The notes beneath the pieces are model-generated. The model made no database searches. It worked only from the letters and a program-made list of their open reading frames with translations, and was not told the DNA's origin. The translations under genes were made by a program, and so were the position numbers. Shown piece by piece: positions 52,413 through 57,814 of a stretch of 64,000 bases of DNA (positions are counted from its first letter, which is position 1; the number at the start of each line of letters is the position of its first letter). Source of the DNA: Arthrobacter sp. QXT-31 (GTDB lineage: Bacteria; Actinomycetota; Actinomycetes; Actinomycetales; Micrococcaceae); the NCBI RefSeq assembly GCF_001969265.1, contig NZ_CP019304.1, positions 1,426,001 to 1,490,000 on the forward strand, in the 5' to 3' direction.

Positions 52413-52565
52413 CTTCTTTGTGATGTGGCGCACAGGAACCGTGCGGCGTCACTCGATGCTCCTCGGCCCCGGCCGGGGAGTCATCATGTAGGGCACAACT
52501 GAATTACATGAACCATTCACAACGGATCGTCCGGCACGTACCTGCCGGTGAAGGGATTGATAACT

Positions 52566-56667: not shown

Positions 56668-57180
56668 TCAGTCTAAGTGCCGGCGGCCGCCCCTACTCTG
56701 CGGCGCCGCCATGAACCTCGCGAACCGGCTCAGCACCTCCGGCCAGTCCGTTTCCCAGCTCGTACGGGTGCCGGCAGGATCCTCGGCGCCCTCCCAGCCG
56801 TCGTGGACCACCCGCACCTCGGTGCCTTCCTTGACGCCGCGGAATACCACGCGAAGCTCGGTGGACCACAGGGCGGTACTGCCTGGGTACCAGGATGCGT
56901 GGAAGGACAGCGGCGGCTGCCAGTCGTCAATGGTTCCCCAGGTGGTGCTCCGCCCGTCCTCGGCTGACTCCAGGATCAGGTTCTCCTCGAACTCCACGTA
57001 GGAGCCGGGTCCGTACACGCTGTTGGTCTCCATTGGCCACCAGAGATGCGTGTGGTCAGTGAAGCCCATAAAGGCCCGCGACACTGGCCCTGGGACGACC
57101 ACCGTGCAGATGACGGGTTCCAGGCTGACTGCAGGCTCCGGAACGTCGCTGCCGGGGGCGTGGCTGAAGAGGTTTTCCAT
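56668..57180 (-). CDS. SRPBCC (START-like) domain protein
   Basis: A 170-residue protein of the SRPBCC/AHSA1-like ligand-binding fold. Typical parts are VPGPVSRAFMGFTDHTHLWWPM, GPGSYVEFEENLIL, and the late EVRVVHDGWEG followed by a W-x3-L-x-R-F-x-x-F helix. It lies 25 bases upstream of the oxidase gene start on the same strand, so they may be co-transcribed. Ligand unknown. Confidence 0.8.
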   Translation of the reverse strand: MENLFSHAPGSDVPEPAVSLEPVICTVVVPGPVSRAFMGFTDHTHLWWPMETNSVYGPGSYVEFEENLILESAEDGRSTTWGTIDDWQPPLSFHASWYPGSTALWSTELRVVFRGVKEGTEVRVVHDGWEGAEDPAGTRTSWETDWPEVLSRFARFMAAPQSRGGRRHLD

Positions 57181-57230
57181 CCCTACCAACTTTACCGGCC
57201 CCCAACAAGCCTGCTCCTCACCTCTGCCCA

Positions 57231-57644
57231 GGGGCCGAGGACGCGTTTAGGAAAAGCCGGCAGGATCTGAGGAAGCGTCGGTGTAAAACCCGCAGGATCT
57301 GAGGACGCGTATAGGAAAAGCCGGCAACATCTGAAAGAGCGTTTCGGAAATAGCCGCAGGATCTGAGGGAGGGTCGGTGAAAAACCTGCAGGATCTGAAG
57401 GAGCGTTTCAATCGATCAACTGATCCTGGAACGCTCTATCACTACCGACGGCTTCTAACCCAACGCGTCATCAGATCCTGGCGTCTCAAACGCGACGCTC
57501 TCTCAGATCCTGCCGTTTCAGAGCAAACCCTCAGTCAGCTCCTGTCGCCTCAAGCCAGACGCGCCCTCACGTGTGGTCGTGGGACTGAGGACGCGTTTGG
57601 GAAATGGCGGCAGGGTGTGAGGACGGGTCCGGTGGGCTGGGCGG
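57231..57644. repeat. Array of thirteen 32-bp degenerate repeats in two orientations
   Basis: Each unit has a 15-base core (consensus GGATCTGAGGACGCG) and a 17-base tail. Six forward cores begin at 57231, 57263, 57295, 57327, 57359 and 57391, five inverted cores at 57432, 57464, 57496, 57528 and 57560, and two forward again at 57581 and 57613. Spacing within each block is exactly 32 bases. Tails come in two types: TTTAGGAAAAGCCGGCA (units 1, 3 and 4, with small changes) and TCGGTGTAAAACCCGCA (units 2 and 5). The first orientation switch is near GATCAACTGATC (57413-57424). There are no spacers between units. It lies between the SRPBCC gene and the rrn terminator. Function unknown. Confidence 0.85.
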
Positions 57645-57650
57645 TTAAAT

Positions 57651-57687
57651 GGTTCAGGCCCCGACGTTCATCGTCGGGGCCTGAACC
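57651..57687 (-). terminator. rrn operon terminator
   Basis: GGTTCAGGCCCCGACG (57651-57666) and CGTCGGGGCCTGAACC (57672-57687) form a perfect 16-bp stem with a 5-base loop just downstream of the 5S gene. On the minus strand a short ATTTAA follows. Confidence 0.85.
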
Positions 57688-57696
57688 GTAAATAGT

Positions 57697-57814
57697 GTCC
57701 GGCGGTGACCTACTCTCCCACACCCTCCCGGGTGCAGTACCATCGGCGCTGTGGGTCTTAGCTTCCGGGTTCGGAATGGGACCGGGCGTTTCCCCCACGC
57801 TATGACCGCCGTAA
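57697..57814 (-). rRNA. rrf: 5S ribosomal RNA
   Basis: Minus-strand reading begins TTACGGCGGTCATAGCGTGG, has the conserved CCGAACCCGGAAG and ends GGTCACCGCCGGAC. The first and last bases pair. Ends are estimated to within a few bases. Confidence 0.92.

Follow-up and report, generated by a model that had tools for sequence, protein, structure and literature searches.

What is a row of diverged 32-bp repeats that changes orientation twice doing at the end of an rRNA operon? The window, meaning the whole 64,000-nucleotide stretch of Arthrobacter sp. QXT-31 analyzed here, was scanned with a weight matrix, and 13 units of 32 bp were located at positions 57228-57641 in the order ++++++-----++. The original prediction had placed thirteen repeats with two changes of orientation at 57231..57644; they are real, and its coordinates describe the same array in another phase, 3 bp off. 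The unit scan divides the array into a forward block of six 32-bp units (57228-57419, plus strand), an inverted block of five (57418-57577, minus strand), and a last forward block of two (57578-57641, plus strand), which is the arm facing the rrn 3′ end. Spacing is exactly 32 bp inside each block, which bears out the strict register that had been claimed, and the blocks abut with a 2-bp overlap, giving a length of 13 × 32 minus the 2-bp overlap when the array is cut as 32-mers. The two recurring tail types that had been noticed, A/TTAGGAAAAGCCG and CGGTGNAAAACCY, are present. Four of the 13 units are degenerate: the opening unit scores 10.2, the first of the inverted units 15.3, and the pair at the dyad 11.6 and 9.3. 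The other nine score 18.6-29.2. Searching the window for GCAGGATCTGAGGACGCGT with up to 3 mismatches gave 7 matches compared to 0.03 expected, and 0 of 100 shuffles reached 7.

The surroundings of the array are well defined on its rrn side. A hairpin search places a central dyad hairpin at 57555-57600, between the inverted and last forward blocks, with a 16-bp imperfect stem (57555-57570/57585-57600). The array adjoins the rrn terminator as had been stated: 9 bp separate its end from a perfect 16-bp inverted repeat that has a 5-nt loop (57651-57687, minus strand), found by an inverted-repeat search and presumed to be that terminator. The Rfam scan locates the 5S rRNA, the 3′ end of the rrn operon preceding the array, at 57697-57813 on the minus strand. 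The neighboring reading frame (56668-57189, minus strand, from the ORF list, start uncertain) lies beside rrn in relatives both with and without the array, and Pfam had no match for its 121-aa short form. Rfam had no match over the array in the window or at loci L022, L072, L102, and L121. Elsewhere in the window, an msiK RNA (Rfam RF01747) lies at 52505-52563, directly upstream of another gene that we take, by eye, to be ABC transporter ATPase-like.

The window array is one member of a large family. When the whole 5.04-Mb genome was searched with a 19-mer, 52 matches were found over both strands and 0 with the reversed control. The genome contains at least 39 arrays of two or more units (165 units in 30 loci), and seven relatives contain 49 arrays (205 units in 40 loci); L013 and L023 are single 19-mer matches without an array and were left out of the array counts. 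The weight matrix found no unit above threshold in reversed loci, and likewise none in 3-mer-shuffled versions of the loci chosen with the 19-mer. Profile R1, a sequence-only core-spacer-core model built from 39 own-genome segments, gave at least 110 matches at E ≤ 0.01 among the best 150 candidates scored in this genome. R1 matches at least 52 of 99 sampled genomes, all in the window's genus (52 of 61), where 9 of the 61 genomes gave no match; none of the 38 genomes from other families of the order matched. Within the family, at least 74 of 395 genomes from 2 of 32 genera matched (64 in the window's genus and 10 in one other), and within the class at least 3 of 345, all of the window's genus. 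These counts are lower bounds since 15-150 candidates were scored per genome, and diverged dialects are under-counted because this genome supplied the training data for both R1 and the weight matrix. At the menC/phoX locus, arrays are carried by Arthrobacter globiformis, A. ipis, and Pseudarthrobacter strains, among others. One array used as a query had no match in phages; among plasmids the window array was unmatched, and the only matches of another array were two megaplasmid records of Arthrobacter sp. StoSoilB13. A very strict pattern for the bare hairpin gave few matches, in 3 of 12 genomes. No description of the 32-bp array family was found in the open-licence PMC literature on Arthrobacter repeats, REP/BIME, termination, phased Lrp sites, or the motif. 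A table of predicted REPs in PMC12306157 has an entry for Arthrobacter livingstonensis, which could in principle include the 32-bp family.

The family is not special to rrn. Three of the six rrn operons in the genome have an array within 1.5 kb of the 5S gene, and most arrays adjoin protein genes. The array after a third rrn operon (L015 4315-4461; G000:C1:2570314-2570460) has five units that face away from the rrn end, contrary to the usual rule described below. A second array, homologous to the one in the window, lies 1.5 kb beyond it, past another gene that is presumably transposase-like, judged by eye.

The best-conserved part of the unit is a 12-bp motif, about STGANRRMGSGT, that occurs once every 32 bp, and the remainder is variable. 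Read out of the gene that it follows, the motif is ACGCTCYCTCAC or similar. Between-locus identity at positions 8-19 is 0.96 in genome G081, 0.93 in G020, 0.94 in G016, 0.86 in G002, 0.83 in G072 (10 units only), and 0.75 in the own genome, whose motif is the least uniform of the six compared. The corresponding values are 0.55-0.66 for positions 1-7 (GCAGGAN) and 0.37-0.49 for the 13-bp spacer, in a comparison that favors the core because weight-matrix selection covers positions 1-19 but leaves out the spacer; positions 1-7 fall under this selection too and still vary. Since positions 8-19 are conserved while positions 1-7 and the spacer vary, what chiefly defines the element is a directional 12-mer repeated every 32 bp. 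Single units do not fold better than shuffles (212 distinct units; mean -5.38 compared to -5.05 kcal/mol), and the longest exact stem within these 212 units is 3.34, the same as in shuffles (3.34).

Register was measured in loci chosen with the single 19-mer, a selection blind to spacing. Neighboring units are 32 bp apart in 68 of 76 pairs, and the others are 29, 31, 33, or 36 bp apart. R1, the source of loci L060-L072 and L073-L112, favors pairs 32 bp apart. With all sets pooled the distance is 32 bp in 325 of 351 neighbor pairs; this pool, like the pooled hairpin, dyad, and spacer-polarity counts, holds one array twice, L097 and L116 being probably the same. The share at 32 bp is steady with divergence, with 122 of 135 pairs for near-identical cores and 59 of 63 for cores at least 27% apart. 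These data support selection on register, as originally proposed, and the phased protein-binding array suggested at the same time is compatible with a 12-mer that is better conserved than other parts of the unit. A selectively neutral satellite would offer a simpler origin, its units multiplying by slippage or unequal crossing-over and 32 bp being a mere duplication unit. Such a satellite is consistent with the likeness of neighbors in the same arm (core identity 0.866, spacer identity 0.557) and with copy numbers that differ greatly among species at one site. We nevertheless consider it very improbable: the register holds between diverged neighbors, an outcome not anticipated from slippage by itself, the motif is conserved above the spacer and positions 1-7, and the arrays have a strong bias of place. 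A decayed protein-coding gene was rejected because 32 is not a multiple of 3 and only 3 of the 43 array groups in the own genome run over a called gene. The original prediction had been staked on the spacing being kept at other loci and on the region not being a decayed gene; both points were checked in part, and neither result speaks against it. Departures from 32 bp were seen at individual loci. The array at L012 6139-6256 (G000:C1:1562138-1562255), one of the three groups overlapping a called gene, has a period of 33 where it enters the 3′ part of a predicted reading frame, and is in frame, which suggests that the register shifts under coding constraint. A period-31 pattern search found unit pairs with a period of 31 at L027, L028, and L029, in three relatives.

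The arrays occupy a particular place relative to genes, which were called with a codon-usage script that does not include rRNA genes. Units lie within 25 bp of 28 gene 3′ ends in the own loci and 42 in 40 relatives' loci compared to 0 and 2 5′ ends, respectively, and arrays often begin just beyond the stop codon. The unit nearest the 3′ end faces the gene in 22 of 28 own cases and 39 of 42 in relatives and points the other way in 6/28 and 3/42; part of this facing bias arises because the arms point outward. Array-bearing intergenic regions (n = 76) comprise 33 convergent, 35 tandem, and 8 divergent regions, whereas array-free ones (n = 387) comprise 62, 240, and 85. The convergent enrichment (33/76 compared to 62/387) gives a Fisher value of 5.7e-7. 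Of the 39 arrays located between tandem genes, 33 are closer to the end of the upstream gene. Among 44 arrays with no opposite arm inside 150 bp, 33 point at a 3′ end (protein gene calls, rRNA genes left out). For 17 of these 33 there is a 3′ end on both sides; of the 21 arrays with a 3′ end on one side only, 16 point at it.

From this placement and the motif, we tentatively favor the reading that the window array is one copy of a lineage-specific, dispersed 3′-end boundary element whose row of motifs would be bound by a sequence-specific factor, a reading that we rate somewhat short of probable. Two candidate partners were discarded. Ten neighbors of the divergent exceptions were scanned for a regulator, and they include one response regulator and have no family in common. 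A DUF559-like protein adjoins arrays at one locus only, in three genomes, and Pfam matches it in the L072 copy only. It is encoded at L072 5731-6705, L078 2543-3502, and L090 2616-3575, between arrays and beside a 565-567-aa gene that we take to be formate-tetrahydrofolate ligase.

Two-orientation arrays are mostly built as [---][+++], with the arms pointing outward, and other arrays run in one direction only. Where two strong units diverge, their junction is no more than 2 bp from 18 + 32k in 17 of 24 cases in relatives and 7 of 15 in the own genome. A search by pairing found 43 distinct central hairpins, and some arrays have none. Double changes occur at 14 of 19 pairs in 19 hairpins that were taken from these 43 and consequently lean towards structure. 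This lean is absent from 27 central dyads located with the weight matrix alone, pairing ignored, in which arm identity at positions 8-19 is 0.966 compared to 0.857 when arms are re-dealt (0 of 2000) and pairing runs into spacer positions 20-24 (0.548 compared to 0.364, 0 of 5000). Off-center, the motifs of opposite arms are 0.851 identical compared to 0.777 re-dealt (0 of 5000), a likeness expected from a shared dialect or from copying, and their spacers are 0.325 identical compared to 0.362 between different arrays. Covariation reaching beyond the motif was found only at the central dyad. The 44 arrays without an opposite arm within 150 bp keep both motif and register.

These data bear on the original suggestion that forward and inverted blocks fold on each other into a long hairpin. 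The window array does fold strongly on both strands (z of -9.0 and -8.6), but the data do not support whole-length pairing as the reason for keeping the blocks, and a full-length hairpin of both blocks was rejected as a target of selection since the spacers of opposite arms are not complementary. Because the spacers of opposite arms are not alike away from the center, the complementarity of the motifs, and not selection for a single long stem, may explain the strong fold. At two loci of the rrn-flank site, L197 (2190-2998) and L098 (3538-3962), the arms are separated by 0.4-0.8 kb of other DNA in which no genes are called; this DNA could represent insertions or a different kind of element. A long hairpin without an array follows phoX in Arthrobacter sp. 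AQ5-06 (L126, after 10152) and MAHUQ-56 (L128, after 10244), with arms like GTTGCTCTATCAC...GTGATAGAGCAAC, and is maybe a related or ancestral element.

The composition of the units raises the question of whether the element acts as RNA. The reverse complement of the units, which corresponds to the transcript of the gene pointed at, has C 0.457 and G 0.161 in the own genome and 0.431 and 0.188 in relatives (units scoring >17), whereas sequence downstream of 3′ ends without arrays has C 0.329 and G 0.306, with A = T. The spacer tends to carry a short A-run in unit orientation, equivalent to a T-run in the transcript of the gene pointed at. Between tandem genes, own and relatives combined, spacer A minus T averages +2.34 in 30 arms directed at 3′ ends and -0.83 in 16 directed at 5′ ends (p = 0.0007), a difference suggesting that transcription matters, although the test was made on the same data from which the polarity hypothesis arose. 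Two results speak against a role of transcription: arms between divergent genes lean to A as well (of 12, 9 are positive and 1 is negative), and no polarity rule was seen in two-armed arrays between convergent genes. The short T-runs that might correspond to a U-tract after the hairpin are located inside spacers. Palindrome avoidance was rejected as the cause of the polarity, in that convergent two-armed arrays show no preference for opposite types.

An RNA-level 3′-end element would require no dedicated DNA-binding protein: the C-rich, G-poor transcript of the first arm would load Rho as a rut-like site, and the central hairpin would stop polymerase or protect the RNA 3′ end. The base composition, the compensatory changes in the central hairpin with pairing that extends into the spacer, and the T-run in the sense of the gene pointed at between tandem genes all agree with this possibility. 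The A-run in arms between divergent genes is not predicted by a transcript-sense T-run, the polarity was tested on the data that prompted it, and the retention of motif and register in arrays without a nearby opposite arm also counts against it. To our knowledge, Rho does not require a fixed 12-mer every 32 nt, and genome-specific dialects would not follow from it. We regard an RNA-level element as possible but on the unlikely side.

A sequence-specific factor that reads the motif, as the boundary element would require, leads to an expectation about evolution. Dialects are expected from a trans-acting factor with shifting specificity, and from copying between loci too. The 12-mers of the menC and phoX arrays of one genome are 0.896 identical compared to 0.804 for the same locus across genomes (8 genomes); when menC arrays are re-dealt among the 8 genomes the value is 0.797, and 0 of 2000 permutations, which do not account for species kinship, reach the observed one. 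The sequence GAGAGCG occurs in 44 of 50 units in G081, GGACGCG or GGAAGCG occurs in 32 of 45 units in G002, and the own genome is mixed. The motif differs between genomes and is common to loci inside most of the genomes compared. Copying also occurs and could make part of the dialects because near-identical arrays are found at unrelated loci. Of 666 pairs of own arrays, 11 share at least 44 of 51 bases; three are rrn-linked, and the eight at other loci share 44-49 of 51 bases, spacer included. The forward arrays L019 6028-6146, L020 6580-6791, and L025 6586-6765, at unrelated loci, have 46-49 of 51 bases in common, spacer included, and L019 and L025 have 49 of 51. A 320-aa gene, which we take to be inositol-phosphate-synthase-like, occurs together with the three-unit array that follows it in two almost unaltered copies at separate sites of one genome (L068 4968-6024 and L072 3286-4342). 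We think that copying accounts for part of the dialects only because spacers mostly differ between loci.

Occupancy of a given site varies among relatives. In 23 named loci, phoX is followed by two or more units in 12, a single unit in 2, and none in 9, where two of the 23 menC/phoX loci (L118 and L131) end near the site. The phoX arrays have 2 to 13 units, and the next gene is different and convergent at four loci. The window's own site carries 0 to thirteen units in relatives, with no unit in 15 of 29 loci, several of which stop at contig ends; it is empty with the 5S gene in view in L195, L198, and L203. The element is dispensable, since genomes of the genus without a match exist and the window's site is empty in these three loci. 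Such a pattern might also be left by non-autonomous DNA, mobile or copied, of a MITE-like or REPIN-like kind that settles 3′ of genes; its outward arms would be recombinase-binding ends and its 3′ bias a choice of target. Dozens of dispersed loci, occupied and empty versions of one site, and the near-identical array pairs fit mobile DNA, and the outward repeated ends may be likened to multi-site transposon ends. A Y1 (RAYT-type) transposase is absent from the own genome and present in 1 of 81 genomes of the genus, spacers are on average unmatched between loci while the motif is matched, and no target duplication was evident by eye at the one empty site inspected, L195. Mobile DNA is a serious though improbable account of the family.

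We return to the boundary at gene ends. Here a sequence-specific factor would bind the 12-bp motif, and a row of factors would line up on one DNA face, because sites recur every 32 bp, or three helical turns, or else on the emerging transcript. The row would serve as a boundary at which RNA polymerase is stopped or released and/or supercoils between neighbors are absorbed, especially between convergent genes; in the window, the array would separate the end of the rrn operon from the adjoining gene. Several observations weigh against this reading: divergent genes, where nothing ends, flank 8 of the 76 array-bearing regions; the unit nearest a 3′ end points the other way in some cases; the own genome's motif is the least uniform; and the element is dispensable, with some inter-locus copying. 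A bolder version, which we consider unlikely, holds that a dedicated, fast co-evolving Arthrobacter protein reads the directional 12-mer and assembles a one-faced row outward from the gene-end hairpin, insulating transcription units. If it were true, the dialects would reflect joint change, from one species to the next, in what the protein recognizes and in well over a hundred sites per genome, and the genus would be a natural laboratory for the co-evolution of one protein with its whole site set. Classical U-tailed terminators are scarce in GC-rich actinobacteria, and gene ends are poorly understood there for that reason. The arrays mark dozens of gene ends per genome with a defined motif, a strict period, a copy-number series, and empty sites in relatives, and the genome-specific dialect could help in the search for a binder.

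How the family relates to known systems depends on whether its place or its build is compared. The regular tandem spacing resembles CRISPR and prokaryotic satellites. The arrays differ from CRISPR, as the original prediction had it, in their orientation flips and in neighboring spacers that are partly alike (0.557 identical), and they differ from a simple tandem satellite, again as proposed, in being 39 arrays dispersed over 30 loci with diverged units and orientation flips. Compared to MITEs, the outward arms resemble inverted ends and some near-identical segments occur at unrelated loci; one empty site showed no target duplication by eye. Like intrinsic terminators, including the U-less, I-shaped actinobacterial type, arrays have a GC-rich hairpin near the stop codon, though not in every array, and their C-rich, G-poor transcript resembles Rho rut sites. 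Unlike either, they have phased motif repeats flanking the hairpin, dialects, and members without an opposite arm. Lrp sites are promoter-linked and roughly palindromic, and array units differ from Lrp/AsnC-type sites in being directional and mostly located after genes. Passages of PMC2995911 describe Lrp sites on one helix face, two or three helical turns apart, and the arrays are like such phased operators in that their sites, from the period alone, would lie on one face at three-turn spacing.

The closest comparison is with REP/BIME elements. Passages of PMC3733652 and PMC2817692 describe these as short extragenic repeats that are scattered in both orientations and cluster near the 3′ ends of genes; the functions suggested for them are termination, mRNA stability, supercoiling, and gyrase binding. 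The arrays are likewise dispersed, extragenic, 3′ of genes, and present in both orientations, as REP/BIME elements are in enterobacteria. They are unlike REP, BIME, and REPIN sequences in that the 32-bp unit is not itself a palindrome (212 units, shuffles equal), the hairpin being at the central dyad only. They also differ from REP/BIME in their head-to-tail period of 32 bp, in arms that run mostly outward from one hairpin, and in the conservation of a 12-mer rather than a stem. A RAYT/REPIN identity was rejected because the Y1 transposase is lacking here and found in 1/81 genomes of the genus, whereas REPINs have an associated RAYT. The original exclusion of a REP pair agrees with the build of the unit, which is not a palindrome, and with the near-absence of RAYT; the place is REP/BIME-like. 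The family extends the REP/BIME concept to units that are not palindromes and to genomes without RAYT transposases, and it is best read as BIME-like in place and different in build.
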